Below, in pieces: positions 106 through 49,224 of a DNA stretch of 49,449 bases. Below the pieces are notes generated by a model. It saw only the letters and a program-made list of their open reading frames with translations, did no database searches and had not been told where the DNA came from. Position numbers and translations under genes: made by a program. Every line of letters begins with the position of its first letter. Within the stretch, counting starts at the first letter, position 1. This DNA is from a virus, in the IMG/VR virus record IMGVR_UViG_3300043331_000530, positions 1 to 49,449 of that record; one strand, 5' to 3'.

Positions 106-134
106 TTTGCTGACTCCCTACTCTCTCACTCACC
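106..134. repeat. Inverted repeat arm flanking the genome junction
   Basis: The bases from TTTGCTGACT to CTCACTCACC are an imperfect reverse complement of 49239-49271, which runs from GGTGAGTGAG to GAGTCAGCAAA. The arms sit on either side of the AT-rich terminal repeat when the molecule is circular. This could be part of an origin or of a regulatory region. Confidence 0.6.
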
Positions 135-153
135 AGTGCAACCATTGCATCGG
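133..153. repeat. Dispersed palindrome, copy 1
   Basis: Core TGCAACCATTGCA with flanks CCAG and TCGG. It matches the family core TGCAA-N3-TTGCA and lies in non-coding DNA next to the inverted-repeat arm, downstream of the terminator of the 238-905 unit. Confidence 0.85.
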
Positions 154-214
154 CGTCTGACTGTAATCCGACGTGTGGCGTGTGGCAATAGGGGGAATAG
201 ATAGGTAGGAAGGA

Positions 215-249
215 GAAAAAAGGAAAAAGCCCCTGTACTAGCGGGCTTT
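215..249 (-). terminator. Rho-independent terminator of the 238-905 unit
   Basis: Read on the minus strand, AAAGCCC (249-243) pairs with GGGCTTT (232-226) and is followed by a T-rich run interrupted only by CC. The stem spans the stop codon of the 238-393 gene. Confidence 0.8.
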
Positions 250-393
250 CCTGACGCATTTGGGGCAGAGATCGCGGCCGTACTTGTGCTCCTCGCTGGG
301 TGGCTCATACGCCAAGTCTTGGAACTTGACCCATGCGCCACAGGCATTGCAGTGTTCCCACTGCTGGCCGTTTTTGTCAATGACGCCAGACAT
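238..393 (-). CDS. Small zinc-ribbon-like protein
   Basis: A 51-residue ORF. It carries two Cys pairs, CNAC around residue 15 and CPKC near the C-terminus, spaced as in a small treble-clef or zinc-ribbon fold. It follows the 453-905 gene in the same direction with a 59-bp gap and ends inside a terminator, so it is probably the second and last gene of that transcript. Function is unknown; similar tiny Cys-rich genes are common in the 45-48.6 kb early cluster of this genome. Confidence 0.7.
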   Translation of the reverse strand: MSGVIDKNGQQWEHCNACGAWVKFQDLAYEPPSEEHKYGRDLCPKCVRKAR

Positions 394-452
394 ACACACT
401 CCCTTGCAAGTTGAGGTGAGCGCCCTATTTCGGGGGCACAGTCGAGATGGGA

Positions 453-905
453 CTACTCGACTACTGCCTTCACACCGTACTGGGCGAGAATCGCTTGCAT
501 TCTCGACTTGTCGCCCTTCGCGGCAGCCGCCTCCAACGCGGCGTAGTCGCTTGGCGTGATGACCTTCGGGGCGGTTGCCCGAGCGACGCCCTTCGTCTGT
601 CCCGGGATGCCCGAGTCGAAGGCTGCTTGAATAGCCTCAGCAGACTCTCCCTGCTCGAACATGGGACGTCCGAAGCGGTCCTGTAGCCAGATCGTGTAGC
701 CTCTGTTGAAGAGGGAGGCGACGGCACGTTGGAACGTGTCGAACGCTGAGTCTCCCAGCATCTGGCGCACTAGCTCGACAGCCTCAGCAGGCGCGCCGCA
801 GATAGCTAGACAGTCTGCCACATCCTCGGGGCGCCGATACGTCAGGGTGATCTGCGCGCGAGTCGACTTGGACTTTGCGCCCACCTTGATCGGAGCGGTT
901 TTCAT
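453..905 (-). CDS. Hypothetical early protein, paralogue of the 48043-48429 product
   Basis: 150 residues from an ATG at 905 preceded by AAAGGAG at good spacing; an upstream in-frame ATG at 962 lacks such a site. The start MKTAPIKVG and the core FNRGYTIWLQDRFG resemble MKTESLRVG and FNRGFRIESQERSG of the 48043-48429 product, so the two look like divergent paralogues. The C-terminus (SDYAALEAAAAKGD) also aligns loosely with SPDELAALLQAAG. It is driven by its own leftward promoter at 1011-1039. No known domain recognised; a small nucleic-acid or host-interaction role is only a guess. Confidence 0.75.
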   Translation of the reverse strand: MKTAPIKVGAKSKSTRAQITLTYRRPEDVADCLAICGAPAEAVELVRQMLGDSAFDTFQRAVASLFNRGYTIWLQDRFGRPMFEQGESAEAIQAAFDSGIPGQTKGVARATAPKVITPSDYAALEAAAAKGDKSRMQAILAQYGVKAVVE

Positions 906-1010
906 ACAGTCTCCTTTGCGAGAGAAAACGCATTGTGAGACTGCGCCCCCGAAATAAGACAATTGTCACTGCGCCAGAGTCAGATGCACTCCCTCGTTGA
1001 ATGTACTGCC

Positions 1011-1039
1011 AATATAATGAGGCGACTCTTAGAAGTCAA
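1011..1039 (-). promoter_or_regulatory. Sigma-70 promoter for the leftward 238-905 unit
   Basis: On the minus strand: TTGACT (1039-1034), 17-bp spacer, TATATT (1016-1011). It lies about 105 bases upstream of the ATG at 905. Confidence 0.8.
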
Positions 1040-1110
1040 TAACAGATAGATTACATTTCTTACTCAAAACCATTACAAAGTTTTCCACATTCGCTGCCCA
1101 GGGGGCCAAG

Positions 1111-1199
1111 TGTGAGCACTCACTCCCTCGACTCAGGGGGGAGAATTGTGAGCACTCACTCACGACCAAGCTGATTTGGGACCGTGAGTAGTCGCTCAC
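1111..1199. repeat. Cluster of GTGAG...CTCAC dyads
   Basis: TGTGAGCACTCACTC occurs at 1111-1125 and again at 1147-1161. A variant with a wider gap, GTGAGTAGTCGCTCAC, is at 1184-1199. GTGAG repeats also occur near the genome junction (49240-49264). They look like binding sites for a dimeric regulator or like iterons; neither role is proven. Confidence 0.65.
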
Positions 1200-1319
1200 A
1201 TTCCCCGAGAGTACTAGGGCCCCCCTTGAGTGCTGTGAATCCCCTTAATGGCCTCCCCTATAATCGCCAGGATTTTTTCCTGAATGGCGTTTCACGTGGC
1301 TCCGGTGCACCCCCCTCTC

Positions 1320-1335
1320 TGTGACGTGTATCACA
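1320..1335 (+). promoter_or_regulatory. CRP/FNR-type operator-like dyad
   Basis: TGTGA-CGTGTA-TCACA is a perfect match to the classical CRP consensus halves with a 6-bp spacer. Its centre lies about 84 bp upstream of the expected start of the 1377-1405 promoter, a position compatible with activation. Binding is inferred only from the motif. Confidence 0.5.
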
Positions 1336-1348
1336 GCGGAGGTCTCGC

Positions 1349-1370
1349 CCGCAGAGCTGGTTGCACTACC
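1349..1370. repeat. Degenerate dispersed palindrome beside the late promoter
   Basis: The right half TTGCACTACC matches the palindrome family exactly, and the left half is only partly conserved. It abuts the -35 box of the late promoter, the place expected for an operator. Confidence 0.35.
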
Positions 1371-1376
1371 TTGCCC

Positions 1377-1405
1377 TTGACAAATTCTGACTCCGGTGGT
1401 AGATT
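1377..1405 (+). promoter_or_regulatory. Sigma-70 promoter for the rightward (late) unit
   Basis: TTGACA (1377-1382), 17-bp spacer, TAGATT (1400-1405). It is the only strong rightward promoter seen, about 60 bp upstream of the first gene at 1467, and may serve the closely packed genes up to 31676. Confidence 0.8.
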
Positions 1406-1466
1406 AGATTAGTCGCACTTCGCAATCCCCCCAATCCCATTACCTGAGGGCTGGAGGACCTGAGTC

Positions 1467-1676
1467 ATGAACAGGCGTTCTTTCCTCGTGTGTGCAGCGG
1501 CAGCCGCGGTGCTGCGTAAGCTCCCCCCGGCAGAGCCTGAGTGGATTCGCATAGCTGAGGCTGGCGTTCCGATACCCCCAGCGCCCTACAAGTCTGGATT
1601 TCTAATCTCCAGGGAACTCCTGGAAGATGACCTCTACGGCAGTCTGGACTATGCCTGGAGCCAGTATGTCAAGTGA
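1467..1676 (+). CDS. Small protein with Tat-like start and a capsid-like segment
   Basis: 69 residues, ATG 9 bases after GGAGG. The N-terminus NRRSFLVCAAAAAVL resembles a twin-arginine export signal. The C-terminal segment SRELLEDDLYG matches SKELMDDDLYG of the major capsid protein (9146-10042) in 8 of 11 residues, and a 14-base stretch (GATGACCTCTACGG) is identical at DNA level. It is the first gene of the late unit and overlaps the next gene by 11 bases. It may be a partial duplication of the capsid gene or a short capsid-mimicking peptide. Function unknown. Confidence 0.6.
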   Translation: MNRRSFLVCAAAAAVLRKLPPAEPEWIRIAEAGVPIPPAPYKSGFLISRELLEDDLYGSLDYAWSQYVK

Positions 1677-4367: not shown

Positions 4368-4738
4368 TGGGGTGGGTTGGGGTAGACCTGGATGGGACAC
4401 TTGCCTGTTACTTCCCTGGGGATGAGGTGGAGACCATTGGGCCACCAGTCCCTAAGATGCTGGAGCGGGTAAGGGAATGGCTCTCCAGGGGCGTGGAGGT
4501 AAGGATCGTCACTGCAAGGGTTGCCCGCTGTGGGGAGGCAAATGAGCGGGGAATCTTTGACACGGTGGAATTCGCCGTGAAGCAGGAGCAGCTCATCAAG
4601 GCATGGTGCATCAAGTACCTTGGCCGCTCCTTGGAAGTGACGGCGCAAAAGGACTTTCAGATGATGGAGCTCTGGGATGATCGGGTGGTGCGGGTGGAAA
4701 CCAACACTGGCAGGGTTGCCAGGACGGGGAACGGATAA
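4367..4738 (+). CDS. HAD-superfamily phosphatase-like protein
   Basis: 123 residues from a GTG overlapping the previous stop. The N-terminal VDLDGTLA is the HAD motif I (nucleophile and acid Asp, residues 7 and 9). RIVTAR supplies the motif II Thr, and LWDDRVV supplies the paired Asp of motif IV. Such small phage HAD proteins hydrolyse phosphate esters, possibly nucleotides or DNA 3' phosphates; the substrate cannot be read from sequence. It sits in a string of overlapping small genes between terminase and portal. Confidence 0.75.
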   Translation: MGWVGVDLDGTLACYFPGDEVETIGPPVPKMLERVREWLSRGVEVRIVTARVARCGEANERGIFDTVEFAVKQEQLIKAWCIKYLGRSLEVTAQKDFQMMELWDDRVVRVETNTGRVARTGNG

Positions 4739-4866: not shown

Positions 4867-5027
4867 GCCTTAATTTCGTCCCCGTTGGGGAGCGGGCCCG
4901 GTTCAGGAGGTACTGTAAGAGCCGGGGGATTCGGGGGAAGGAGCGGATGCGGAAACTCTGGATGGAGATTCAAGCCAAGAGAGATGCCAGTGCAATGATT
5001 GCATCGGAGCGTAAAGCTAATGCCTGA
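4863..5027 (+). CDS. Basic small protein; C-terminus carries a palindrome
   Basis: 54 residues from a GTG overlapping the preceding stop. Rich in Arg and Lys, helical. The DNA for its C-terminal ASAMIASE is palindrome copy 2, and the same codons in the same frame (ASAMLASD) end the 48631-49224 product. It overlaps the portal start by 8 bases. Function unknown. Confidence 0.6.
   Translation: MSLNFVPVGERARFRRYCKSRGIRGKERMRKLWMEIQAKRDASAMIASERKANA
4987..5007. repeat. Dispersed palindrome, copy 2
   Basis: Core TGCAATGATTGCA, flanks CCAG and TCGG. The right flank runs into GGAG (5006-5009), the likely ribosome site of the portal gene at 5020. Confidence 0.9.
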
Positions 5028-10605: not shown

Positions 10606-10869
10606 ATGAATCTTCCATCTGGTGATAAGCAATTTTCCTGGGGTAATATAGGGGTGATTGGTGCCATGCTGGTCCAATTTGGCGCCATGATATGGTGGGG
10701 GGCGACCCTGACGGCTGGACTGTCAGTGGTGAGAACGGCGACACAGGAGTTCCGAGCCTCCATCACCGTCCTAACGTCAATACAATCGGAAATGGCGGCC
10801 AGGCTTACCGTCGTGGAATCCAAGGTGGACGATTTGAGGACGGAAACCAAGGCTAGAGAACTTAGGTAG
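10606..10869 (+). CDS. Membrane-anchored coiled-coil protein (lysis-accessory-like)
   Basis: 87 residues from an ATG 4 bases after GAGGAGGG. One membrane segment (about residues 13-42, GVIGAMLVQFGAMIWWG) is followed by a heptad-like helix (EMAARLTVVESKVDDLRTE). This topology resembles XhlA-like or other holin-accessory proteins. It begins a run of three membrane genes. Palindrome copy 3 follows its stop directly. Confidence 0.6.
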   Translation: MNLPSGDKQFSWGNIGVIGAMLVQFGAMIWWGATLTAGLSVVRTATQEFRASITVLTSIQSEMAARLTVVESKVDDLRTETKARELR

Positions 10870-10886
10870 TGCAAGCATTGCACTGG
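10867..10886. repeat. Dispersed palindrome, copy 3
   Basis: Core TGCAAGCATTGCA with 7-bp arms AGTGCAA/TTGCACT, starting in the stop codon of the gene before. Its right flank CTGGAG gives a GGAG 9 bases before the next ATG (10897). Confidence 0.9.
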
Positions 10887-10896
10887 AGCTTGTGAC

Positions 10897-18995: not shown

Positions 18996-19904
18996 ATGGC
19001 GAGACGGGGAAGAATAGGCTGGTCTGAGTTGGAGGTACCTCTTGTAGTGGTCCCTCGCCGTGGAATCATTGGCTGGAGTGAGCTAGAGGTACCAGATGAG
19101 CCGAGGAGAGGTAGGGTAGGGTGGGCCGTACTGGAAGTACCGGATGCTACTGGGACACCATCTGCCCCGAGCACCGATTTCGTACAGGGATTCCAAGGTG
19201 TTAGTGAGGCCCTTTCCGCCTGGGCAATGGTTCAGCTACCACAAAGCCCAGATGTGCGGCCCTACATGCACGCTATGGCGGCCGCTCTGAAGGAAATAGC
19301 CACACAGGGAGAGCCCCTCACGGCAGTTGTTCCGGGGACCAGTGGTAGGCTAGCTAAGTTTACTGGGACCACTAGATTGGGGGATTCTCTGGTAGTGGAG
19401 ACGGATACAATGGTGGAGGTAGAGGGGACTCTGATAGCGGTGGATCAAGGAGTGCATGGGACTTTAACAGTAGGGCTGGGAACGAACCAGATCATTATTA
19501 CCCATGCGGGGGGAAGTGGGACCGATCCGACGATTAGCTTTAGGACCGCTCAGAACCTGAGGGCTCTGGTAGGAGTGGCCTCGGCGGTGGATCGCCTTGT
19601 GATTGGGAGCGTAGAGGGGGATCTGGTACTGAGGGTGCAGCCAGGTGGTTCCCTGAAGGTGGCGGTGAATGCTGGGACCCTCGTTCACTTTAAGGTAGAC
19701 GTGACGGGGATCGACCATATAGGGGTCCACAAGATCCATGGGGTTCAGGTACTGACCACTCGTAGGACAGGCTATGTGCAAATGACAGGTACCTCAAATA
19801 GAGGGACAGTGTTTGATACGGCTACCATTACGAACGCCCAACTGGCGCAAAGGGTTAAGGCCATGCAGGATGACCTCATGACGCATGGAGCCTTCGGCGC
19901 TTAG
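18996..19904 (+). CDS. Tail fibre-like protein with triple N-terminal repeat
   Basis: 302 residues. The N-terminus holds three copies of a short unit RRGRIGWSELEVP (about residues 3-15, 21-33 and 37-49). A beta-rich fibre body follows, with GLGTNQIIITHAGGSG and GDLVLRVQPGGSLKV. The C-terminal part (TRRTGYVQMTGTSNRGTVFD) resembles fibre tips near phage fibre stops. Palindrome copy 4 begins two bases after the stop codon. Confidence 0.65.
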   Translation: MARRGRIGWSELEVPLVVVPRRGIIGWSELEVPDEPRRGRVGWAVLEVPDATGTPSAPSTDFVQGFQGVSEALSAWAMVQLPQSPDVRPYMHAMAAALKEIATQGEPLTAVVPGTSGRLAKFTGTTRLGDSLVVETDTMVEVEGTLIAVDQGVHGTLTVGLGTNQIIITHAGGSGTDPTISFRTAQNLRALVGVASAVDRLVIGSVEGDLVLRVQPGGSLKVAVNAGTLVHFKVDVTGIDHIGVHKIHGVQVLTTRRTGYVQMTGTSNRGTVFDTATITNAQLAQRVKAMQDDLMTHGAFGA

Positions 19905-19905
19905 G

Positions 19906-19925
19906 TAGTGCAACGTTTGCACTGG
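19906..19925. repeat. Dispersed palindrome, copy 4
   Basis: Core TGCAACGTTTGCA, arms AGTGCAA/TTGCACT, between two fibre genes. The flank CTGGAG supplies GGAG before the ATG at 19933, as in copy 3. Confidence 0.9.
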
Positions 19926-19932
19926 AGTAGAT

Positions 19933-24675: not shown

Positions 24676-26235
24676 ATGACTAATCCACTGGCTAGTGCTG
24701 GAACAGCAAGTCCCTCGGTTATCAACGTACCTGGGTACCAGCCTGACTTTGGGATGATCATGCAGGCGCTCATCGCATCGAAGGCAAGGAAGCAGAGGCA
24801 GGCGGAAACTGCCCTTGAGCTGGTCCCACAGGATACGCCCTTTGGCGAGTTGGCACCTGAGGCGCAAAAGAGCCTGGAACGGGCGACGGGGAGGAAGTGG
24901 GGTCCAGAGGAAATTGTCAAGCATCGCCCTGTGGGACAGGAACTATCTGATCTGAAGGCCCTAATGAAAGGGTTGCAGATAGATGAAAAGTCCGATCTAG
25001 GGGCTGGACTACTGGCGGCGCAGGCAGCTAGGACCGCTACCGGTAAGCCTAGTGACATTGCAACTCCTGGACAACTGTCGGTAACTCAACAGACAACGGC
25101 CGCACGGGGGAGGACGGAACTAGCGAGGGCAAGGGGGGAGGAAGCTAGACTCCCCACCGAACTGGCTACTGCCGTAGAAAAGGGAGAAGCGGGACTATCC
25201 TTGGCCAGGTCAGCAAAGACAGAGGCAGCCGCCTATGAATCCGCCCTAGGCAAGTTGAGGGCGGGAATCACGGATCTTACCCCTGAGGAAACGGCTGTCT
25301 ATAGGAAGGTGAACGACTTCGTCCCGAGTGAGGCAATTGCCCAGCAACTTGGAGGGCAGGCACGAGGGGAGGCGATGAAGCACGCCATTCGGATACTAGG
25401 GGATCCAGACTCTAGTGCCCTCACCAAGGTGCTGGCTCCTATTGGAGTCAGTGCCGCCGACGGGATCGGCCTGTTCGCCCTTGGCTTCGACAATATGCTT
25501 AACACCGCTCTCAGTAGACAGGCCTCCATAGATGTGGCCAAGATTCAGGGAACGGTGGCGGGACAGGAGTACGCCACTAAAGCCGTCTATGGGATGGCTG
25601 AGGAAGTGAGTAAGGGGCTGAAAGGATTGGTAACCCCGGACTTCATCGTTAAGGTGGCCAGAGGGGACAAGAAGGCTGCGGAGACCCCTAAGGGACAGAT
25701 GGTCCTACGATTCATGCAGTCCGGTTATGATACTGCCCTCACAAAGCAGGGGCAGGAAGGGGATCCTGGTGCTCTGATGGTTAAGCAGCTAATGGAACTT
25801 GCGAGGAACCCTCAGCTTGCTAATAACCCAGATCTGCTGGCTCAGGTTAGCAACCTGGTTCGGGAAAGTGGACTGGCAGGGCAGACTAGGACTCTCACTG
25901 GAATGTGGCGACCGACGCAGCCTGGACCTGAGCAAAAGACCTGGGACGCTATTAACAACGCCCTTAGCCGAGAGCTTGGAGGAATGTTCCAGAAGATGGA
26001 GAAGACCATCCTTGGGGTCCCGCTTGGTTGGGCTGGTCAGACGCACTACAAGCTCACTCCGCCCGGTGGTGCCTCCCAGCCAGAGCAGGCTCTTCCAGCG
26101 GCCAAGCAGAAGGGCCAGGCGGACCAGAAGATCCTCTCTGACGCGATTGATGCCATTTTCGCGGGGCAGGAAGGCGTGTTTGGGAGTGACGTAACCAAGG
26201 TGGCACCGCAGCCTGGTGCAGGGGCCGCGCGATGA
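24676..26235 (+). CDS. Internal virion (ejection) protein
   Basis: 519 residues, helical throughout, with long charged Ala-rich stretches (GRTELARARGEEARLPTELA) that look like coiled coil. No enzyme motif. The combination of helix, position directly upstream of the giant gene and ATGA overlap (26232-26235) suggests a core or ejection protein acting with its neighbours. Confidence 0.6.
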   Translation: MTNPLASAGTASPSVINVPGYQPDFGMIMQALIASKARKQRQAETALELVPQDTPFGELAPEAQKSLERATGRKWGPEEIVKHRPVGQELSDLKALMKGLQIDEKSDLGAGLLAAQAARTATGKPSDIATPGQLSVTQQTTAARGRTELARARGEEARLPTELATAVEKGEAGLSLARSAKTEAAAYESALGKLRAGITDLTPEETAVYRKVNDFVPSEAIAQQLGGQARGEAMKHAIRILGDPDSSALTKVLAPIGVSAADGIGLFALGFDNMLNTALSRQASIDVAKIQGTVAGQEYATKAVYGMAEEVSKGLKGLVTPDFIVKVARGDKKAAETPKGQMVLRFMQSGYDTALTKQGQEGDPGALMVKQLMELARNPQLANNPDLLAQVSNLVRESGLAGQTRTLTGMWRPTQPGPEQKTWDAINNALSRELGGMFQKMEKTILGVPLGWAGQTHYKLTPPGGASQPEQALPAAKQKGQADQKILSDAIDAIFAGQEGVFGSDVTKVAPQPGAGAAR

Positions 26236-29200
26236 GCGATCCACTTGGCGAGTACATCCTTGGTCAGCGCACGGGCCTATCAGCGGAGCCGGATGTACCA
26301 GGGGCAAGAACTCCTAGGTTGGCGATTAGTGGCGCTATCCCTTTCAGGGCAAACCCATTCTTTGCTGATCTAGGAGTTGTCTCTCCCATCCCTGAAGCTC
26401 CCCTACGGTTCGAGCAACTTCCTACTGAACTTCAGGCTCGTCTCGCAGAGGTCCAGCCTGCGGTCCTCAAGCTTGGTCCGAAGTATAATTATGGGCGCTT
26501 AATGGATCTGGCTGAACAGGGAAAGGGGAAGCTGAACCCGGACGTGTATTTCAAACTGGCTGCCACCGCAACCCTCGGCTTGAGTGGGCAAATCAGGTCG
26601 CAGCAGACCAAGGCGATCCAGGCTCCCCTGGTGGCGGCGAATGAGTTTGCCCGACAGACCACCTTTGGGGTCATTCCGGGGGTGAAGGGTGAGAACCTGG
26701 CCCTTGACCCTAGCGGGGTGGCCATCGCTAAGATGGTTGGTGGGATAGCAGGCATCCTCACATCAGGGAAGCTCGTGGTAAGTGCCCTTAGCAAGACAAC
26801 CCTCCTTCCAAAGGTGGGTCCTATTCTCCAACAGATCCCTCAAAGGGTAAAAGAGGTGACGTTGGGGATTGGGACAGGAGCCATCATGGATGCGGCCCGC
26901 CCGGATGGGCTACCGGAGGAGCCGGCGGAAATTGACATTACCGCTAGAATGGCTCACCACATCGCGGACGTCCTTGGTGGAGGGGAAGCAGCGGAAAGGG
27001 CTGCCCTCGGTCTGGCTGGTGGTGTCACCGGAGGTGGAATAGCCGCTGTGCTACTCCCCGTCTTTAGGGGTATCCAGTGGGCGAGGGAGGGTCGTCTAGC
27101 TAACCAGCTAGGGGATGATGGTATTGAGGCGGTGCGCCAAGCCCTACAACGGGCTGGAGTAGTGGTGGAGACCGGAGCGGATAAGCGTGCCGTGGTTGGT
27201 AAGCTGCTGGCTAACATGGACAAGGTAAGCCAGTCGGAGAGGCTGGCGGCGATGAGTGCGGCGGATGAGACGAGGATGGATTATGTCCTGAACCTGCTCT
27301 ATTCGGACCCAGCGTTCAGCGGGCCACCCAAGCTCCCCGATCTGGTTACAGATAATGCTGGTAAGCCGGTCAGATTTTACCATGGATCACCCAGGGCACT
27401 TGAAGGAGCGCCTAGGTTGTCTGAATCCGAATACGGCCATGCCTTCTACCTCTCAAATACTCCAGAAGGGGCCTCGTATTTCGCGGGGCAACCGACCTCC
27501 TACACTCCAGCCCCAAATATAACTCCATTTTATGTTAGGGGTAAAGTGCTGGACACCACTGGGTGGGCTGATGGGTCAGTCAACGCCATTGAATCTAACC
27601 CAGACTTCGTAGAAGCGGCCGTTAAGCTATACTGGAAGGCGCAGGGATCCAAGGGGAAGTTCGAGGAATTCAGACAAACGGCCCTTAGCGACCTAGGCTG
27701 GCTTGGGGTTGACCTCTCTGGGAATCACCTAAGAATGCTAGGGGAGGCAGCGAGGAAAACCGGGTACGTGGCAATCCGAGAACACCAGGTAGTCCCGTCA
27801 GGCGCGGCATACGAGGCAATGGCAGTATTCGACCAGAAGGCACTGGTTCCAGCCTTCGCGTCTCAGGACGCCCAGTACCTCGCCGCCGTGTTCCGCGCCA
27901 ACCCTGGGGGACTCAGCATCGCCAAAGGGGTGAGTGACGTGAGGGCCGCAGAAGGCTTGGTCGACAAGTTGGGCCTGAACGTAGTGTCCATCAAAGCTGG
28001 TGGGGACATGATTATCATGCGCCCTCAGGTACAGTTCCCTGAGGTGGGAGTGATAACCTCCAGGATCCGAAAGGATATGGACGGGTTCGTGGAGCAGGTG
28101 AAGGCCCTCAATAGAGGGAAGCCATCCACTCGCCTTTCCATTCTCCCAGATGGGACCGTTGTGAAAGGGGAATTCAACGCAGCGGAAATGGCCAATAGGT
28201 TCAAGATCAAGACCGGGACGGTAGGGCACGAGGTAGCGGTAAGGGAGCACCTTGGGATGATGGAGGTGAAGATAGGGGAGGGTGGAGTGATAGAAGTCCA
28301 GCTGCCAAGCAGGGTGACCCAGAGGCAGGCTACCGTTCTAGGGAAGATGGCGGATAGAGGCGTCCCGGAAATGAGGATAGTTTCCACCATGAAGGAGAGG
28401 GCGCAGGGACCAGCGCCAGGGGCCTTCACTAGCCATGGCTTCGGGGATCCGGACATTATCTCAGCGATGGACCGGAATGTTACTGGTGGCATGAGAGCCC
28501 TTCCCTCTAGGGAGGCAACCATCGCCTCTATGGCCTCAACCCATGAGGCAATGCTACCAGCTGGGTTCCACTATCGTAAAGTGGGCGATAACCTCTACCA
28601 GGTTTATGAGACCACCGAGAAGGGTACAAGGGTGTGGGGCTCTGGTCGTTCCCCTAACGAGGCTTTCCAAACGGCCGTTGATAGAGGGCTTCGCTTCAAG
28701 GGGATGCGCCCCGTCTACGTTCCCCCTGGTCCAGGAGGTGTTAAGGGCGTAGAGGTACTGGTACCAAAGGAAAAGACCTTGAAGAACCCCTTCGGAATGC
28801 AGGTGGAGGATGCCCTTGCTGACCTAGTGCAAGGGGCGAAGAAGCCTAAGATCACAGCGGACGTGGTGAAGAAGGTGCAGCAGTACCAGCAGCAGGGCGT
28901 CTTTCAGGGTCAGGCTGGGATCCTACCGGATGGGTACCCGGTGGAGATCCTGAGGAAGAGCGGGAAGAAGATCGCCTACAGGGACCCAATCACAGGGAGG
29001 ATCCATCGTATCCCAGAGGAAAACATGACGGTGCTCCCTACCAGTCTGGAAGGGGAGCTTGCGCCAAGTAAGCAGATATTCGAGGCAATGGATGAGGCGG
29101 AACGCCTTGCCTTCGCTAACCTACGTAGGGGTATAAATGAGGGACTGGCGAAGCCTATCAAGACGATCAGGGATCTCGAGAGCCTAGCCGTCACAAGAGG

Positions 29201-31676
29201 GAAGCTGGTCACACCCATTGGCCAGGGACGAGTGAGGGTGTATGATCAGAACACCGGTGAGTCAATGGTGTTCGATAATATCAAGGAGGCTAGTACCTAC
29301 GTCCGGAACTCTCTTGGACCTCTTCCTGACCTAACGCCCCCTGAGATAGAGGCATTGCTAGGGTTCAAGCCGAACCTGGGCTTCATTGGGGGTGGAGGTC
29401 CTCCACATAAATTCCATGAGCAGATGGGCATTCCTGATGGGGAGTTCGCTAAGGCGTTTGAGGAGAATACCCTCGGCAGGCTGCCCCCTGGTGCAATTGG
29501 TCAGTTCTTCACTCCCACCCGTGGATGGGTGGAGGATCTGGCTAAGAAGTATAATATGCCCTTCGACAAGGTGTGGGCTAACTTGCAGGCTGGCACTGTT
29601 CATAAGGAGAACTTCATTGCGGGGTGGGGCTACGGAGAGGGACCCTATCTGCCGAGGGGTGTAAAGTCAGTGAAGGAAATCTATAAGATGGCAGGGAAGC
29701 CGGACGATGGGACCCAGCGGCTGATGATGGCCTGGCTAGAGTCCGAGTCGGATGATGTGGCTAGGAAGGCAATTGAGGCCCAACTCACATCGAGGCAAAT
29801 CGAGGCGGCGAAGGAGGCGAGGAAGTGGTTCGGTCTCTCCAAGGAGGATGGGCTCTTTAAGGTCCTGCAAGTGGAGGCTCCCTACCTTACTGACTACGCC
29901 CCACATCTGAGGCAGCAGGCAGAGGTCTTTGGAGGGAACCTCCGTGAGGCATGGAGGATCAGCAAGGGTACTCCCCTCCCAAAGGCAGTGGATTGGGCGG
30001 CGGACCATGTTAGGGATGGGACCCTCGACATTTATGAGGACCGCATTTTCCACTCCATGATGCAATACCTCCACAGTGGGGCTCGTTCCCGCTACCTGAA
30101 TCAGCCACTCTCGGACGCCCAGCGTCTCATTAGGGGCATCCCAGACAATGCGGTGAAGGGACCTCTGGTCAACTATATTGAGGCCCTCAAGGGGTGGGAG
30201 TTCCAAGCTCAGAGGTCAGCACTGGACGCCAGCTTTTCCAACATGCTCAAGAACCTAGGAATGAGTGCGAAGGTGGCGCAGGATATTGGGGAGCGTATGT
30301 CCCTGGCGATGCTTGGGATGAGCTACCAGGCAACCATGGCATTTCGACCTGGTTTGGCGATTAGGAACGCTGCCCAAATCCTTCAGACAACGTGGCCACT
30401 TCTAGGGAGCGTCACGGATGATGCCTTCCAGGTAGGGCTGGGAAAGGCATTGACTAGGGCTGGTAAGGATGAGGCTATCCTAGCTGGTGCCATTTCCATC
30501 CGACAGCATGGACTATTCGCCCAGACAGAGGTGAGGCAAGCCCTTCCCCAACCGCTACAGAAAATGTCCGATCTTGGATTTGCCATGTACGATGGGGCGG
30601 ATACCTTTGCAAGGGCGGTGACCTTCCATACTGCTAAGGCTAGGAGTGAAAAGGCTATAGCCAAGTTCGCCAAGGCCGTGCAGTCAGGGAGGGGGACTGA
30701 GCAGGCTACCAGGGACTTGGTCAGAGAATCCGGGGCTATGGTCCTAAGCCCGCGCTTCAAGGATGAGTTCCTACGAAAGGTAGCGATCAGCCCGGATGAT
30801 GCGGGGAATTTCCTTGGGAAGAACCTAACGGACATTACCCAATTCCTCTACGGTAGGGGGAACCAGCCTCGGTGGATGAGGAGCGTCCCCGGTCGCTTCT
30901 TCGGGCAGTTCGGAACCTGGCCTCTCTGGTACATTGACTTCGTTCTCCGCTCCACCAAGAACATGGTCAGAAATGGGTACAAGAGAGAGGCAGTGAAGTT
31001 CCTTGGGAAGCTGGCTCTGGTTGACGCAGCCATCTATGAGGGTGGGAGAAGGGCGAATATTGACCTTAGGAGATGGATGTCCACCAATGCGATCTTCGGG
31101 GTTCCTCCGCTGGGGAGGGCTCCGGCGACCTCTATCCTGGTAGGAATTCAGGATCTGAGTAGGGGGACGAGCGAGGCGGTGTTCAGCACCTATGACTCTC
31201 CGGCCAATACTCTGAGGCTGGGACTAACGAAGCAGCTCCTAGCACAGACGGGACTTGCCTTTGTTCCCAACTACTATGCCGTCCGAGACATTGGAAGGCT
31301 CATGAATGCTAGGACGCCAACGGAAATGATGGCGGCTGCCCTTGCTACTAGGCCCACCACCGAGTGGACGGTGCAGCAGAGGATGGACCTTCTCTTTGCA
31401 CCAGGGAGGATGTCCACTGACATAGATCTGGAGGAAATGGGGGATCCCACTCCTACTGCCACTGAAATCATCCTTAGAGGAATGGAGCTTAGTAAGGAAA
31501 GACCTAGGCTGGTTGTGCCTCCTGGATTACTCCCTATGCCGCAGACACCTGCCTCTACTCCGGCTGCCCCTGCCACCCCTCCAGCAGCGAGGTCGGACAC
31601 AGTGGCTGGACCCATCATGGATCGCACTGCCCTGCCCAAGACGATTAGGACCGGTGAGTCGAATCCAGTGCAATAG
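26232..31676 (+). CDS. Giant polyvalent internal virion protein with ART-like domain
   Basis: 1814 residues, the largest gene. At about 373-500 the sequence DNAGKPVRFYHGSPRALEG, then GHAFYLSNTPEGASYFAG, fits the PolyVal-type ADP-ribosyltransferase fold (conserved YHG start, strand with FYLS, Tyr nearby). The rest is helical, with hydrophobic stretches such as MSYQATMAFRPGLAIRNAA, suited to membrane passage during ejection. Multi-domain proteins of this kind enter the cell with DNA and may modify host targets. It ends at palindrome copy 5, facing the leftward operon. ART activity is inferred; the catalytic set was not fully verified. Confidence 0.65.
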   Translation: MSDPLGEYILGQRTGLSAEPDVPGARTPRLAISGAIPFRANPFFADLGVVSPIPEAPLRFEQLPTELQARLAEVQPAVLKLGPKYNYGRLMDLAEQGKGKLNPDVYFKLAATATLGLSGQIRSQQTKAIQAPLVAANEFARQTTFGVIPGVKGENLALDPSGVAIAKMVGGIAGILTSGKLVVSALSKTTLLPKVGPILQQIPQRVKEVTLGIGTGAIMDAARPDGLPEEPAEIDITARMAHHIADVLGGGEAAERAALGLAGGVTGGGIAAVLLPVFRGIQWAREGRLANQLGDDGIEAVRQALQRAGVVVETGADKRAVVGKLLANMDKVSQSERLAAMSAADETRMDYVLNLLYSDPAFSGPPKLPDLVTDNAGKPVRFYHGSPRALEGAPRLSESEYGHAFYLSNTPEGASYFAGQPTSYTPAPNITPFYVRGKVLDTTGWADGSVNAIESNPDFVEAAVKLYWKAQGSKGKFEEFRQTALSDLGWLGVDLSGNHLRMLGEAARKTGYVAIREHQVVPSGAAYEAMAVFDQKALVPAFASQDAQYLAAVFRANPGGLSIAKGVSDVRAAEGLVDKLGLNVVSIKAGGDMIIMRPQVQFPEVGVITSRIRKDMDGFVEQVKALNRGKPSTRLSILPDGTVVKGEFNAAEMANRFKIKTGTVGHEVAVREHLGMMEVKIGEGGVIEVQLPSRVTQRQATVLGKMADRGVPEMRIVSTMKERAQGPAPGAFTSHGFGDPDIISAMDRNVTGGMRALPSREATIASMASTHEAMLPAGFHYRKVGDNLYQVYETTEKGTRVWGSGRSPNEAFQTAVDRGLRFKGMRPVYVPPGPGGVKGVEVLVPKEKTLKNPFGMQVEDALADLVQGAKKPKITADVVKKVQQYQQQGVFQGQAGILPDGYPVEILRKSGKKIAYRDPITGRIHRIPEENMTVLPTSLEGELAPSKQIFEAMDEAERLAFANLRRGINEGLAKPIKTIRDLESLAVTRGKLVTPIGQGRVRVYDQNTGESMVFDNIKEASTYVRNSLGPLPDLTPPEIEALLGFKPNLGFIGGGGPPHKFHEQMGIPDGEFAKAFEENTLGRLPPGAIGQFFTPTRGWVEDLAKKYNMPFDKVWANLQAGTVHKENFIAGWGYGEGPYLPRGVKSVKEIYKMAGKPDDGTQRLMMAWLESESDDVARKAIEAQLTSRQIEAAKEARKWFGLSKEDGLFKVLQVEAPYLTDYAPHLRQQAEVFGGNLREAWRISKGTPLPKAVDWAADHVRDGTLDIYEDRIFHSMMQYLHSGARSRYLNQPLSDAQRLIRGIPDNAVKGPLVNYIEALKGWEFQAQRSALDASFSNMLKNLGMSAKVAQDIGERMSLAMLGMSYQATMAFRPGLAIRNAAQILQTTWPLLGSVTDDAFQVGLGKALTRAGKDEAILAGAISIRQHGLFAQTEVRQALPQPLQKMSDLGFAMYDGADTFARAVTFHTAKARSEKAIAKFAKAVQSGRGTEQATRDLVRESGAMVLSPRFKDEFLRKVAISPDDAGNFLGKNLTDITQFLYGRGNQPRWMRSVPGRFFGQFGTWPLWYIDFVLRSTKNMVRNGYKREAVKFLGKLALVDAAIYEGGRRANIDLRRWMSTNAIFGVPPLGRAPATSILVGIQDLSRGTSEAVFSTYDSPANTLRLGLTKQLLAQTGLAFVPNYYAVRDIGRLMNARTPTEMMAAALATRPTTEWTVQQRMDLLFAPGRMSTDIDLEEMGDPTPTATEIILRGMELSKERPRLVVPPGLLPMPQTPASTPAAPATPPAARSDTVAGPIMDRTALPKTIRTGESNPVQ

Positions 31677-31685
31677 TTGCATCGG
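31665..31685. repeat. Dispersed palindrome, copy 5, at the convergent junction
   Basis: Core TGCAATAGTTGCA, containing the TAG stop of the giant gene and lying 4 bases from the stop of the converging helicase gene (31689). A second small dyad, GTTCATCTGAAC (31688-31699), follows. Neither has a T-run, so neither is a classical terminator. Confidence 0.9.
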
Positions 31686-31688
31686 AGT

Positions 31689-36446: not shown

Positions 36447-37778
36447 TCAGGACTTGAAGTTAAGGCCCTGGAACGCTTCCATCAGGTCATTACTGAGAGG
36501 TAGTGCAGAGCTTGCACTGGCGTGCGCAGGTCGGACACCATCCCTAGTCTCTTGGAACCAAGAGTTAGCTCGGTCTGCATACTCTTGGCTAAGCTCGATT
36601 CCTCGATAGTTGCGAGACGCCTCAATACAAGCCACTCCACAAGATCCCGAGCCTGAGAAGGGTTCAAGAACGCTCTCGCCTTCCACACTTCCGATTTCCA
36701 GGATTTCCTTCCAGAGATCAGTAGGCATTTGGAGTGGATGGATCCTATCATCTCGGTCAGGCGTATCATAGACGAAAACATTTCCCAGTCGGAGCTTGTT
36801 AAATCGAGGACTACCCTTCCGACCCCAGAAGAAGGTCTCGTACTGGGAGGGAAAACTCTGGTAAGGATTACTAAGACTGGATAGGATCTTATTGGGTTTG
36901 TACCAGACACACGGTACCTGTTGATACGCAAATCCAGCCCTAGATAGGATCTCTTTCCCCTCTTCCAATCGCATAGTGGGGTAGAAGAAAACGAACCACC
37001 TATCTGGCTTAAGGACACGATACACCTCCTTAGCCACTTGGAACAGTAGTGGGACGATTACCTCCTCGGCATCCTTGTAGATGGTCCTATCCCCGAGGAA
37101 CACGGACTCAATGTCCACTCCGTAGGGAGGGTTAGTCACTGCGAAGTCCACTGAATCAGAGGGTAGTCCTAGAAGGACCTGTAGGGCATCCCCAACCGTA
37201 ACCTCGGCTGAAGTCTTAGGCTTCATACCAGAGGCTTCAGCCATCATCCTGATCTTCGCATCCGTCTTGCGCTGGTCCAGTTGCTTGATCTGGGTCAGTC
37301 GCATCATTGCCCCCACTTGGGTCTCCGCCTTCGCCACCTCCGGCTGTGTATCAATGGCCCTGGATAGTTCCATGGCGTTAAAGACCTTGCGCCTGGAGCA
37401 GAGGAGGAGCTCCGCCGTCTTTTCCGCGGTCCACACCATGTCCTGTTCCATCTTCATCTGGTGGATCTTGGAGATAGCTTTGCTCTCCTCCTGCCAGCTA
37501 AGGTTGTGCCGCCTGACGTTCTCCTCCAGCTCCAAAACTTGAGCCTGCTCAGGGGTTAGGGCCCCCACGTACTCTGCCCTAATCTCGTCCCACCCTAGCA
37601 TGATGGCGGCTGTCAGGCGACGGAACCCATAAACGAGGTTGTTCTCGTTATCGAGGCCAATATTCTCCAGTAAGCCATGCTCCTGGATGCTCTTGGCTAG
37701 AGCTTCAATGTCCCCCAGATCGGTACGCTGCCTTTCCGCTAGGCTGGTTCTGATCGAGGAGATTGCGACCTTTGGCAT
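36447..37778 (-). CDS. ParB-like/DNA methyltransferase fusion
   Basis: 443 residues. The N-terminal 1-110 has the ParB/Srx pattern (IQEHGLLENIGLD, YGFRRLTAA, ALTPEQAQVLELEEN), followed by a helix-turn-helix. The C-terminal part is an amino-methyltransferase with NPPYG (216-220) and the SAM motif LEPFSGSGSCG (371-381) in the beta order. It likely methylates adenine or N4 cytosine. The final coding stretch (ASASSALP) is palindrome copy 6. The fused ParB-like domain may guide target binding. Confidence 0.85.
   Translation of the reverse strand: MPKVAISSIRTSLAERQRTDLGDIEALAKSIQEHGLLENIGLDNENNLVYGFRRLTAAIMLGWDEIRAEYVGALTPEQAQVLELEENVRRHNLSWQEESKAISKIHQMKMEQDMVWTAEKTAELLLCSRRKVFNAMELSRAIDTQPEVAKAETQVGAMMRLTQIKQLDQRKTDAKIRMMAEASGMKPKTSAEVTVGDALQVLLGLPSDSVDFAVTNPPYGVDIESVFLGDRTIYKDAEEVIVPLLFQVAKEVYRVLKPDRWFVFFYPTMRLEEGKEILSRAGFAYQQVPCVWYKPNKILSSLSNPYQSFPSQYETFFWGRKGSPRFNKLRLGNVFVYDTPDRDDRIHPLQMPTDLWKEILEIGSVEGESVLEPFSGSGSCGVACIEASRNYRGIELSQEYADRANSWFQETRDGVRPAHASASSALPLSNDLMEAFQGLNFKS
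36501..36520. repeat. Dispersed palindrome, copy 6
   Basis: Core TGCAGAGCTTGCA: one arm differs at one base (TGCAG). It lies in codons for ASASSALP near the C-terminus of the methyltransferase, in the same reading phase as copies 2, 8 and 9. Confidence 0.8.
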
Positions 37779-41714: not shown

Positions 41715-42092
41715 CTAGATTGGGGTTGAGCCATCTGCTAGTGCTAGCCTTTCGACAGAGGCCCGGCTAATGACGAGGTGCTTATACTCCCCGTCACGAT
41801 GGGACCAGAGTAGGACATTGCAGTGGCCGAAGCGACAGAGCCACATAGAGAGGGCGAGGGCATTTAGAATAGGGGAGCCACTCATAGAGAGGTAGTCCTC
41901 TTTGGCGGCTACCTTAAGCCTGTTGCCAACCATGACCATGAGACGGTCAGGGTTGAAGGGATTGACGGAGCCAGTAGAGATAGCCATGACTCGGCCGAAC
42001 CTCTCAGCATCCTTGTAGTCATGGCCGCCTTCATTTACCAACCATACCACTGGTACTCGCTTCACTGGCCACTCTTCGGCAGGAGTTGTCAT
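41715..42092 (-). CDS. Conserved phage hypothetical protein
   Basis: 125 residues. VWLVNEGGHDYKDAERFGR, GSVNPFNPDRL, SGSPILNALALSMWL and CNVLLWSHRDGEY follow a pattern repeatedly seen in phage proteins of unknown function (nucleotide- or Rossmann-like fold). Overlaps the next gene upstream by 4 bases. Confidence 0.65.
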   Translation of the reverse strand: MTTPAEEWPVKRVPVVWLVNEGGHDYKDAERFGRVMAISTGSVNPFNPDRLMVMVGNRLKVAAKEDYLSMSGSPILNALALSMWLCRFGHCNVLLWSHRDGEYKHLVISRASVERLALADGSTPI

Positions 42093-42310: not shown

Positions 42311-42738
42311 GGGGTGGTGGTATCTCCCTCTTGGAGGGTGCGCACTAGGTTGGTCTCACCTGTCGTAAGCCACCATGGCTTGTGCGTGTCGGAGAACTTC
42401 TCCTTACTCTTGGCTCGGTCACAGAGAATGGGGATTGCGCCGTAACCCCATCGCTCTAGCTCCGCCTCGAACTGCTTACCAGGCTGGCGCATTTCCAGTA
42501 TGATGATAACCTTCCCCTGAGTGGTCTGACCAGTCAAGCCACAGACCCGCTCTATCTCCGCTGATCTGCCTAGCTCGGAGAGGAGCCACTCAACCACGGC
42601 GTAGGTGCCCCGTTGGGACTCCAGCTGAAGGCGGCTCATGTCGTGGGGATCCTGAATAGGGATGCGGAGCGTCTCAATGCCCTGATCCAGGGAGGAGACA
42701 GTCTCCTGTCTGATCGAATGGTAGTGCAAGTGTTGCAC
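42307..42738 (-). CDS. Hypothetical protein starting within a palindrome
   Basis: 143 residues if begun at the GTG inside palindrome copy 7; ATG at 42639 is the next option, and the codons before it look coding. The C-terminal part (TTQGKVIIILEMRQPGKQFE, then HKPWWLTTGETNL) is alpha/beta. First gene after the 42788-42816 promoter. Family unknown. Confidence 0.55.
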   Translation of the reverse strand: MQHLHYHSIRQETVSSLDQGIETLRIPIQDPHDMSRLQLESQRGTYAVVEWLLSELGRSAEIERVCGLTGQTTQGKVIIILEMRQPGKQFEAELERWGYGAIPILCDRAKSKEKFSDTHKPWWLTTGETNLVRTLQEGDTTTP

Positions 42739-42741
42739 TGG
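42722..42741. repeat. Dispersed palindrome, copy 7
   Basis: Core TGCAAGTGTTGCA, arms AGTGCAA/TTGCACT. It lies about 45 bases downstream of the leftward promoter (42788-42816), an operator-like position that also covers the likely start codon. Confidence 0.9.
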
Positions 42742-42787
42742 TTTTTCTCTCGAGGTTTGCAGTTAGCACTCTAGCCTATGTGATACA

Positions 42788-42816
42788 AAGATAGTCACGG
42801 ACTCTCATTCTGTCAA
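42788..42816 (-). promoter_or_regulatory. Sigma-70 promoter for the replication operon
   Basis: On minus: TTGACA (42816-42811), 17-bp spacer, TATCTT (42793-42788). TTTGTATCACA overlaps the -10 and reads into the start region, as at 47888-47898. The -35 overlaps the stop codon of the gene upstream. Confidence 0.8.
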
Positions 42817-43046
42817 GGGCTAGGCTCTTGTATCATAGGGCCGACGTATGAGCCTTTCATCATACGCTGGAGGAGAAGTTCCTTCAGATCATCCGCCTCG
42901 TTGCGAGCTGCCTTAGCTGTGATGCGGCTACTCTGGAATTCGTACCGCTCGTAGAAACTGGCAGTCTCCTCAGCCCTACGCCATTCATCAAGTAGGGTGA
43001 GGAGGTCACGACGTTCCTTAAGCCTACCGTGTAGGGTCATTTCCAT
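42813..43046 (-). CDS. Hypothetical helical protein
   Basis: 77 residues from an ATG at 43046 (a longer start at 43079 is possible). Mainly helical: HGRLKERRDLLTLLDEWRRA and ITAKAARNEADDLKELLLQR. Overlaps the zinc-motif gene upstream and ends in the -35 box of the replication promoter. Function unknown. Confidence 0.55.
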   Translation of the reverse strand: MEMTLHGRLKERRDLLTLLDEWRRAEETASFYERYEFQSSRITAKAARNEADDLKELLLQRMMKGSYVGPMIQEPSP

Positions 43047-44764: not shown

Positions 44765-44787
44765 TGTGATTCTCCTTACATGGGGGA

Positions 44788-44888: not shown

Positions 44889-44891
44889 AAG

Positions 44892-46763: not shown

Positions 46764-47014
46764 GTGAAATCCAGGGAAACAACAACGCCCTTGTGTAGCT
46801 CGGCGGAGTTGTCCTCCACCTTGCCTATGGTGTACTCCCAGTCCTCCGCGAAGATGGTAATGAGAGGCTTGTGCCGCTCCAATAGGAGGGCAAGGAGATG
46901 AAGCTCCTCCGCAAGTTGGGCGTCAGGCAGTGCAACGTCTGCATTGGTGGGAAGGATCACGGGGACCTCAATGTTCCTCCCATCCCGCGCGTGAATGGTG
47001 ATGCTTGTCATCAT
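46760..47014 (-). CDS. Hypothetical protein with internal palindrome
   Basis: 84 residues. TSITIHARDGRNIEVPVIL, AEELHLLALLLERH and ITIFAEDWEYTIG. The DNA for NADVALP is palindrome copy 8, in the same reading phase as the other coding copies. Overlaps neighbours. Unknown function. Confidence 0.6.
   Translation of the reverse strand: MMTSITIHARDGRNIEVPVILPTNADVALPDAQLAEELHLLALLLERHKPLITIFAEDWEYTIGKVEDNSAELHKGVVVSLDFT
46928..46947. repeat. Dispersed palindrome, copy 8 (degenerate)
   Basis: Core TGCAACGTCTGCA: the right arm has one change (CTGCA). Coding for NADVALP in the 46760-47014 gene. Confidence 0.65.
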
Positions 47015-47702: not shown

Positions 47703-47833
47703 TTCCCGCCGGGGCGCTTGAGAGTGGCATTCGCTACGTTGGCGTACTTCGCCGCCTCTCGGATGAAGCGGCTTTCGTCAGAGCAGGCGTAGACAGTCTT
47801 ACCGTCTACACGGATCTCGTAGTACTGGGACAT
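47699..47833 (-). CDS. Small hypothetical early protein
   Basis: 44 residues from an ATG after AGGAGAT; a longer frame reaching 47938 crosses the promoter and is not credible. Sequence YYEIRVDGKTVYACSDESRF, then a Lys-rich end. First gene after the 47897-47925 promoter, heading the long early run. Confidence 0.65.
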   Translation of the reverse strand: MSQYYEIRVDGKTVYACSDESRFIREAAKYANVANATLKRPGGK

Positions 47834-47896
47834 TGTGGGATCTCCTATGCGAGGTGGAGAGTGTCGCGCAACTAGCGCGTAGTCCATTGTGATACA

Positions 47897-47925
47897 AATA
47901 TAACGAAGCCGCGTCAAAAAGTCAA
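47897..47925 (-). promoter_or_regulatory. Sigma-70 early promoter
   Basis: On minus: TTGACT (47925-47920), 17-bp spacer, TATATT (47902-47897), followed by TTTGTATCACA that is shared with the 42788 promoter. Drives the genes from 47833 down. Confidence 0.82.
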
Positions 47926-47956
47926 GGGGTCGCCTCACAGATTCGTAAGGCGACCC
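47912..47956 (-). terminator. Rho-independent terminator of the 48043-48429 gene
   Basis: On minus, GGGTCGCCT (47956-47948) and AGGCGACCC (47935-47927) form a 9-bp perfect stem, followed by CTTGACTTTTTG. The T-rich part is the -35 region of the next promoter, so the terminator and promoter overlap. Confidence 0.7.
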
Positions 47957-48042
47957 GCTTGAGGGAGGGGCTACTCACGGCCGGCGCTCGACACAGCCTC
48001 GCTAAGGGTCCGACTACCCCAGCACCGTGAGCAGCGTTGCGG

Positions 48043-48429
48043 TCACTCGGCGGTGACCAGATTGGCCTTGATACCCGCAGCCTGAAGCAGAGCGGCAAGT
48101 TCGTCCGGGGAGTAGGAACGCTTGCCCTTCTGGAGCTTGACCTCGACGGGCTTGCGCGGACCAGCCACGCGGGGACGCACGACGGTCGCGTCGTAATCCG
48201 CCACGAGCTTGGCGATGTTCTCCTCGGGCTGACCTTCGCGGAACGCCTCACGGGCGCCGCTCCGCTCCTGGGACTCGATGCGGAAACCACGGTTGAACAT
48301 ACGCAGGAAGACGGGGAGCTGGCCCTTCGTGAGAACCTGGACATCCTCGAGAGTCTCGGCGATGCGCACAGGGACCTTCACGGCAGGGCGGTCGCCCTTG
48401 ACTCCCACGCGCAGTGATTCGGTTTTCAT
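48043..48429 (-). CDS. Hypothetical early protein, paralogue of the 453-905 product
   Basis: 128 residues, ATG preceded by GGAGGAAC. MKTESLRVG, FNRGFRIESQERSG and SPDELAALLQAAG resemble the 453-905 product. A basic stretch, VVRPRVAGPRKPVEVKLQKG, sits before the C-terminal helix. It has its own strong promoter and terminator, so it may be made early in quantity. Role unknown; nucleic-acid binding possible. Confidence 0.75.
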   Translation of the reverse strand: MKTESLRVGVKGDRPAVKVPVRIAETLEDVQVLTKGQLPVFLRMFNRGFRIESQERSGAREAFREGQPEENIAKLVADYDATVVRPRVAGPRKPVEVKLQKGKRSYSPDELAALLQAAGIKANLVTAE

Positions 48430-48486
48430 TTGTTCCTCCAGCAGGTTGAGTGATAGGGCGCTGTGCGACCCTAGTGAACGTAATGT

Positions 48487-48515
48487 AATCTACATAAGGA
48501 GCGAGAGCTTGTCAA
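48487..48515 (-). promoter_or_regulatory. Sigma-70 promoter for the 48043-48429 gene
   Basis: On minus: TTGACA (48515-48510), 17-bp spacer, TAGATT (48492-48487), about 58 bases upstream of the ATG. CCC precedes TTGACA as at 1374-1376. Confidence 0.82.
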
Positions 48516-48634
48516 GGGCTCGCCTCGCCATTGCGTGAGGCACAGAAGCAGACGAATAGCCAAGCACCTCGCCACTTACGCCAGGGGTACATGAGTCGGT
48601 CGCAGCGGGCGCAGTAGGGCCACCAATCCGTCAT
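48512..48634 (-). CDS. Small Cys/Trp-rich protein
   Basis: 40 residues; ATG overlaps the stop of the 48631-49224 gene (ATGA). WWPYCARCDRLMYPWRKW, then CFCASRNG, gives two Cys pairs. Its stop lies inside the next -35 box. Probably a real short zinc-binding peptide. Confidence 0.5.
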   Translation of the reverse strand: MTDWWPYCARCDRLMYPWRKWRGAWLFVCFCASRNGEASP

Positions 48635-49224
48635 TGTGAATCCGATGCAAGCATTGCACTGGCGGGCTGCGGCTCTGCCTTCTTAATGAGACGGAGATGT
48701 AGATGAGGGCTTGAGGCGAGGATCTCAAAGCCAAGGCCAGTAGCCTGATTGACGTAGCTATCAAGGTATTCGAGGGCTTGAGGCGGTTGGGGAGTGAGAA
48801 TGATTGCCTCAGTCTGGGCCTTGCCTAAGGTAAGCTCAATAAGGCGAAAGAGAGCCTTCTGATCTGGGATACCATCCATGCGGAGAATGTGGCCCTCGGA
48901 GGCACCGACCATAGAGAACCTGGCACCTCTCAGCTTCTTGCCTGACTTAGCAAGCCTGGACTCATGGCCAACTTGTACGATCCAGGTGCCCACCTCGTCT
49001 CGGCTGGTGCTAGTGCGAAGGGTATTGTGGACGAAGGCAAACTCCGGCTCATTGAGGGCGAGGCTACGCTTGAGGTTGAGAACGAGGTTGCGGAAAGCGC
49101 GGGCCTCCGCAGGGGTCTCAAAGTGGGCCTCGAGAAGTCCAGCCGTCTTAGCGGCCTCAATGAGCTGCCGCACGGTCTCGTGGTGGGCTTTGAGGAAGAA
49201 CGGGGAGTAGTTGTATTCGCCCAT
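48631..49224 (-). CDS. Hypothetical early protein
   Basis: 197 residues with AGGAGG before the ATG. Helical N-terminal half (HHETVRQLIEAAKTAG), a basic RLAKSGKKLRGARFSMVG region and alpha/beta C-terminal half. It ends in ASAMLASDSQ, coded by palindrome copy 9, like the end of the 4863-5027 product. First gene after the junction promoter. Function unknown. Confidence 0.7.
   Translation of the reverse strand: MGEYNYSPFFLKAHHETVRQLIEAAKTAGLLEAHFETPAEARAFRNLVLNLKRSLALNEPEFAFVHNTLRTSTSRDEVGTWIVQVGHESRLAKSGKKLRGARFSMVGASEGHILRMDGIPDQKALFRLIELTLGKAQTEAIILTPQPPQALEYLDSYVNQATGLGFEILASSPHLHLRLIKKAEPQPASAMLASDSQ
48642..48662. repeat. Dispersed palindrome, copy 9
   Basis: Core TGCAAGCATTGCA, identical to copy 3. 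It codes for the C-terminal ASAMLASD of the 48631-49224 product on the minus strand. Confidence 0.9.

Follow-up and report, generated by a model that had tools for sequence, protein, structure and literature searches.

What binds a palindrome that recurs, nearly unchanged, throughout a phage genome? The question is raised by IMG/VR virus record IMGVR_UViG_3300043331_000530, a sequence of 49,449 bases that was analysed over its whole length and is referred to here as the window. The window encodes a protein in which a ParB_N domain, a helix-turn-helix (HTH), and a DNA methyltransferase are fused, hereafter the ParB-methyltransferase. We propose, at a probability of about three in four and on the basis of sequence comparisons, that the nine palindromes of the window are cognate binding sites of this protein, of the parS, NBS, or OB type.

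Nine dispersed palindromes in the window

The palindrome TGCAA-N3-TTGCA occurs in the window as seven exact copies and as two one-mismatch copies with the same flanks (Table 1). A first-pass annotation made from the letters of the window had reported all nine, and they are confirmed at positions within 1 bp of those given; only 36503 and 42724 have been corrected, to 36504 and 42725. The window contains 40 TGCAA and 40 TTGCA words, from which 0.032 pairs are expected at N3 spacing, and the same pair is absent at all other gaps from 0 to 14. The annotation had proposed a shuffled-genome control and a position-matrix scan, and both have been run. Third-order Markov genomes (n = 60) contain no copy in 58 cases and one copy in two, and their commonest 5-bp dyad of any sequence reaches at most four copies, as does the second commonest dyad of the window itself, which has four. 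A 25-bp matrix returns exactly these nine sites. One-mismatch matches at 4513, 8480, and 24965 lack the flanks and are attributed to chance.

The flanks are conserved yet asymmetric, mostly (CC/GT)AG on the left and (TC/CT)GG on the right. Perfect flank palindromy is found in none of the nine sites; one side reads CCAG in eight of them, and the other reads CCGA or GTAG. Because of this asymmetry the sites are oriented, independently of gene strand. The three loop bases differ between copies, and at site 5 they form the TAG stop codon of a gene for an 1814-amino-acid protein. Every site has adenines within its arms. The claim that the copies lie at gene boundaries is borne out, with seven site centres no more than 23 bp from a boundary of an open reading frame (ORF) and the remaining two at 63 and 77 bp. 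Three copies precede gene starts. The annotation was right in reading the palindrome as a selected binding site for a protein, dispersed, strand-symmetric, and located at gene boundaries.

Palindromes of related phages

Nucleotide searches of phage records returned no near relative of the window, and single-protein searches of IMG/VR gave no matches. Homologous phage loci were gathered from IMG/VR starting from the ParB-methyltransferase, a broad alignment of which yielded 80 loci and two narrower alignments ~150 more. The palindrome searches at these loci were de novo, with no sequence fixed. About 61 nonredundant phages have a dispersed 25-bp odd palindrome of their own, with 406 sites and ~30 core versions in all. 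The cores, GGTAAAT, GGTTAAA, GTTCATA, GTTTAAT, GGTCAAn, and GTCCCAA among others, fit one 25-bp frame together with the window's CCAgTGCAAnnnTTGCAcTGg. The window's own palindrome is absent from all 31 relatives searched for it, and across IMG/VR only scattered chance copies are seen, with no dispersed sets. The first-pass annotation had looked to relatives with the same genes for the same sites. This fails for the window's word and holds for the feature, since most of the clade carries its own word, sometimes at homologous junctions. Such junctions keep a site while its sequence differs, and position can therefore persist through sequence change.

Desulfofustis phage LS06-2018-MD01 (OP947158.1; L148 below), which is distantly related to the window, has nine dispersed copies of GTCCCAA-N-TTGGGAC with flanks CTAT/ATAG. 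At the threshold used, it shares sequence with the window only in the primase, the polymerase, the ParB-methyltransferase, and one small protein. As in the window, one of its copies precedes the portal gene and another adjoins the primase stop. Large contigs of relatives carry 7–14 sites each, compared with the nine of the window.

A sensitive detector flagged 36 of 42 loci in the L148-like clade, 20 of 37 in a second group, and none of the 13 relatives found only with the broad first alignment (query A1). It also flagged 7 of 66 unrelated loci, these seven having low-complexity or unrelated repeats. An earlier, stricter detector had flagged 36 of 127 long and 4 of 63 short loci, compared with 4 of 93 controls that were mostly short. 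The palindromes of L175, L186, L174, L204, L401, and L455 were doubtful and were dropped; L455 later returned among the 61 with a different palindrome.

Site spacing is more even than random in nine large contigs (combined P = 2.5e-9), and 16 partial loci are evenly spaced too (P = 6e-4). Outside ORFs lie 125 of 203 sites, compared with 9% expected, and 65% are 30 bp or less from the boundary of an ORF, compared with 13% at random. A site is found at the primase stop in 29 of 65 loci (4.1 expected), usually ~12 bp past it. Sites also favour the stops of ParB and Sak4, and few lie upstream of the primase, ParB, and Sak4 starts in the relatives. The polymerase start has a nearby site in 13 of 67 loci.

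The locus L224 on contig G026 (IMGVR_UViG_3300030007_000014) carries, in 33.7 kb, some nine copies of a palindrome that is longer, is built around ATTACTAATTAGTAAT (flanks CCGGGA/TCCCGG), and is even-centred, unlike those of the other loci. Vibrio phage 1.213.O (MG592583.1; L154) has ten exact TGTGA-N6-TCACA (CRP-like) sites over 42 kb, suggesting the use of a host regulator.

The candidate binding protein

Polymerase, Sak4, ParB-methyltransferase, nuclease, and primase are the families found in all or nearly all palindrome-positive genomes, and among the genomes tested the ParB-methyltransferase is the only shared family with a site-specific DNA-binding domain. Distances between palindromes correlate with those between ParB-methyltransferases when Sak4, nuclease, polymerase, or primase is controlled for (partial r 0.28–0.47, p 0.001). 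With the ParB-methyltransferase controlled for, none of these four proteins correlates with the palindrome (−0.04 to 0.08). The protein was also scanned in 318 segments of eight variable columns across the 61 phages. For the palindrome core the best three segments are all in the HTH, the top one being the recognition helix (residues 142–151 in L148 numbering), and the flank preference maps to residues 120–141, just before and in the HTH. The methylase domain shows no association (partial 0.01 and 0.00). Particular helices go with particular sites: xxH with GGTxA cores, VI[ED] with AGAAA-GTCAA, and AIKRAEAR with AGATC flanks. L148 and L424, whose proteins are otherwise different, have in common the helix SSKS..R and the core GTCCCAA. 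The co-variation thus maps to the HTH, the putative recognition element, and binding of the sites by the ParB-methyltransferase has good support from the sequence comparisons.

This is the third co-variation test. The first (31 phages, with spurious dyads such as L186 included) did not single out the HTH, and the second (n = 34, with doubtful cases removed and 25-bp matrices) gave a modest signal with other regions also high; the signal became clear with 61 phages. The data set was refined between these tests, which is to be weighed.

A small phrog_5888 protein (window 41715–42092, minus strand) is present in 8 of 13 palindrome-positive and 0 of 26 negative genomes and is a possible partner. 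Its association has been set aside, as five positive genomes do not have it.

PF02195 (ParB_N) is matched by 36 of 37 ParB-methyltransferase family members, the window protein at E = 0.0012, below the curated cut-off, and PF01555 (N6_N4 methyltransferase) by 37 of 37. The GxRR and ENxxR boxes of the nucleoside triphosphate (NTP) pocket are invariant across the family, from which nucleotide binding and clamp closure are predicted. The PPY (DPPY) and GS-type methyltransferase motifs, for S-adenosylmethionine binding and catalysis, are conserved apart from the DFPY of L148. In profile searches the N-terminal half finds Noc, ParB, and KorB, and the C-terminal half finds adenine or N4 methylases. 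An AlphaFold2 model of residues 1–205 (mean predicted local distance difference test, pLDDT, 92) has Noc as its top match and only ParB-family proteins among its 35 best PDB matches; the full-length model (pLDDT 84) matches DNA methylases.

ParA (PF13614) was found in none of 21 palindrome-positive genomes, the window included, while all 14 controls were positive, and ParABS partition was rejected on this ground. Tyrosine integrase (PF00589) is likewise absent from the 21 genomes; neither a plasmid nor a prophage stage is therefore indicated, and a reading as recombination sites was rejected.

Sites of this kind are where Noc, KorB, and ParB nucleate before closing with CTP and sliding (PMC8429893, PMC11790492). 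The spread of many cognate sites over a replicon, as for Noc and KorB, is seen in the window and its relatives. Noc of Bacillus is a ParB-fold CTPase with an HTH that nucleates on short genome-scattered sites and then spreads (PMC8429893). Unlike the phage protein, it has a membrane-targeting helix and no methylase, and NBS is 16 bp long, whereas the phage site is a 25-bp odd palindrome that varies in sequence from phage to phage. KorB of plasmid RK2, also among the PDB matches, is a ParB-family sliding clamp that loads at the OB sites of a small replicon (PMC11790492), but it works with KorA as a repressor and lacks a methylase. ParABS has in common the ParB_N and HTH domains and palindromic DNA sites, which in the phages are genome-wide. 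The identical domain combination occurs in the ParB-N6_N4 methyltransferase fusions of a 2025 ParB-fold survey, which are enriched in phages and have no established role, anti-defence being one suggestion (PMC12704722). The passages of the survey that were consulted give no DNA sites for them, whereas matched sites are reported here in ~60 phages, and no description of such sites was found among the openly licensed papers searched.

The first-pass annotation likened the sites to the stoperators or start-associated sequences of mycobacteriophages, a comparison that does not stand. Those are also short repeats dispersed over a phage genome, but they are asymmetric 13-mers, bound by an immunity repressor or found at translation starts (PMC9283540, PMC3203893). 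The phage sites are odd palindromes that co-vary with the ParB-methyltransferase and in relatives lie mostly past stop codons. A stoperator, being the site of a temperate-phage immunity repressor, is excluded by the palindromic core and the missing integrase, and a start-associated sequence by the clustering of relatives' sites after the primase, ParB, and Sak4 stops.

Proposed role, alternatives, and genome context

In the proposed mechanism, the ParB-methyltransferase would bind the palindrome as a dimer, and its ParB-type NTP pocket would make the protein close into a clamp, which, like Noc, KorB, and ParB, would then move off the site and slide. The sliding clamp would carry the fused methylase, so that the phage genome would be modified along its length, most likely as protection against host nucleases. 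With one loading site per few kilobases, the whole genome would be covered. This clamp-methylation step is put forward tentatively, at somewhat less than even odds, and the same reserve applies to the proposal that a clamp loaded at self-specific palindromes methylates the whole genome with little regard to local sequence.

Several observations weigh against the proposed reading. Many loci with a homologous fusion have no detectable palindrome, and the sensitive detector leaves the window itself unflagged (score 10, null 10), the window passing through its exact copies and the matrix. The evenness of its nine sites alone is not significant (P = 0.08), and its ParB-methyltransferase, 23–30% identical to the others, is one of 61 points. 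The Mantel permutations take no account of phylogeny or shared ancestry. L148 has DFPY in place of DPPY, and in the 2025 survey some tested fusions bound ATP or GTP, not CTP (PMC12704722).

The same protein and sites could instead serve gene regulation, with a KorB-like repressor or roadblock insulating transcription units and the methylase in another role. KorB silences promoters after loading at OB sites (PMC11790492), site 7 of the window lies ~45–55 bp downstream of the start expected for a sigma70-like promoter, and the excess of sites outside ORFs and close to their boundaries is in keeping with insulation. We nevertheless consider regulation rather unlikely, as the sites are evenly spaced and in relatives, for the conserved genes tested, mostly follow stops rather than precede starts, that of the polymerase being the exception; their placement at gene ends may reflect mere freedom from coding constraint. 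That the palindrome is the methylation target, with the HTH as target-recognition domain and some nine marks labelling the DNA for replication, packaging, or timing, is improbable. The fusion of HTH to methylase and the arm adenines in every site would suit it, but a 25-bp site and a ParB-type pocket with invariant boxes go beyond what methylase recognition needs, and so few marks would give no protection from restriction.

It is more doubtful still that some other protein of phage or host origin, such as a replication-module partner, binds the sites and is merely co-inherited with the ParB-methyltransferase. Dispersed sites resembling those of host regulators do occur in phages, as in Vibrio phage 1.213.O, and the gene families conserved alongside the fusion belong to replication and recombination. 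However, control for the ParB-methyltransferase leaves no link between the palindrome and the other four conserved proteins, and the association with the ParB-methyltransferase is highest at its recognition helix. A role in RNA, as hairpins acting in termination, processing, or as start-associated signals, is very improbable. Stem-loop folding is possible and a T run follows the 42725 copy on the plus strand, but this copy alone was called terminator-like in the 41.0–49.4 kb scanned, there is no Rfam match, the flanks are incompletely complementary, and the palindrome sequence tracks a DNA-binding helix. Hairpin promoters of the N4 type (5-bp stem, 3-base loop) were rejected, as the 1814-amino-acid protein has no RNA polymerase match and the loop bases vary.

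The window has a terminal direct repeat (1–94 = 49356–49449). Its rightward structural genes, terminase, portal, and capsid among them, meet the leftward replication genes (primase, DNA polymerase, ParB-methyltransferase, and a Sak4-like protein) convergently near 31.68 kb, and the phage is podovirus-like and probably lytic. A 37-bp inverted repeat (84%; 97–133 and 49244–49280) flanks the circular junction, its left arm adjoining site 1 and its right arm ahead of a leftward gene. Three TTGACA-containing elements (1369–1411, plus; 42798–42824 and 48481–48519, minus) have 27–39 bp stretches in common and are possibly the main sigma70-type promoters. The 1814-amino-acid putative virion protein (26232–31676) has a weak ART-PolyVal (ADP-ribosyltransferase) match (E = 0.002, below cut-off).

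Table 1. Palindromic sites of the window and associated genes and domains.
Feature	Position	Core	Strand	Remarks
Site 1	131..155	137-149		Exact; class CCAG...TCGG; intergenic, near circular junction
Site 2	4985..5009	4991-5003		Exact; just upstream of portal gene
Portal gene	starts 5020			Just downstream of site 2
Site 3	10864..10888	10870-10882		Exact; immediately past stop at 10869
Site 4	19903..19927	19909-19921		Exact; between stop 19904 and start 19933
Site 5	31663..31687	31669-31681		Exact; convergent junction, adjoins primase stop
Site 6	36498..36522	36504-36516		One arm change; ~60 bp inside ParB-methyltransferase gene end
Site 7	42719..42743	42725-42737		Exact; leftward gene start, downstream of sigma70-like promoter
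Site 8	46925..46949	46931-46943		One arm change; within small leftward gene
Site 9	48640..48664	48646-48658		Exact; final codons of leftward gene; class CCAG...TCGG reversed
ParB_N-HTH-DNA methyltransferase fusion, 443 amino acids	36447..37778		-	PHROGs/Pfam, co-variation, models; putative binder of sites 1-9
ParB_N (NTP-pocket) domain, residues 13-88	37515..37742		-	GxRR and ENxxR boxes invariant in family
HTH, residues 115-140	37359..37436		-	Recognition helix ~residues 125-135
N6_N4 DNA methyltransferase domain, residues 210-405	36564..37151		-	NPPY and PFSGSG motifs

The palindromes provide likely DNA targets for the ParB-methyltransferase fusions, whose role and targets were left open in the 2025 survey (PMC12704722). 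The catalogue matches ~60 proteins to ~30 palindrome versions, which are possibly orthogonal protein-site pairs. If the fusion does coat the genome from its loading sites, it would be the loading site, not a methylation motif, that tells self from non-self, and the rapid change of both the palindrome and the recognition helix would let each phage modify its own DNA only. Phages may thus modify their own DNA by clamp loading instead of through a methylation motif.

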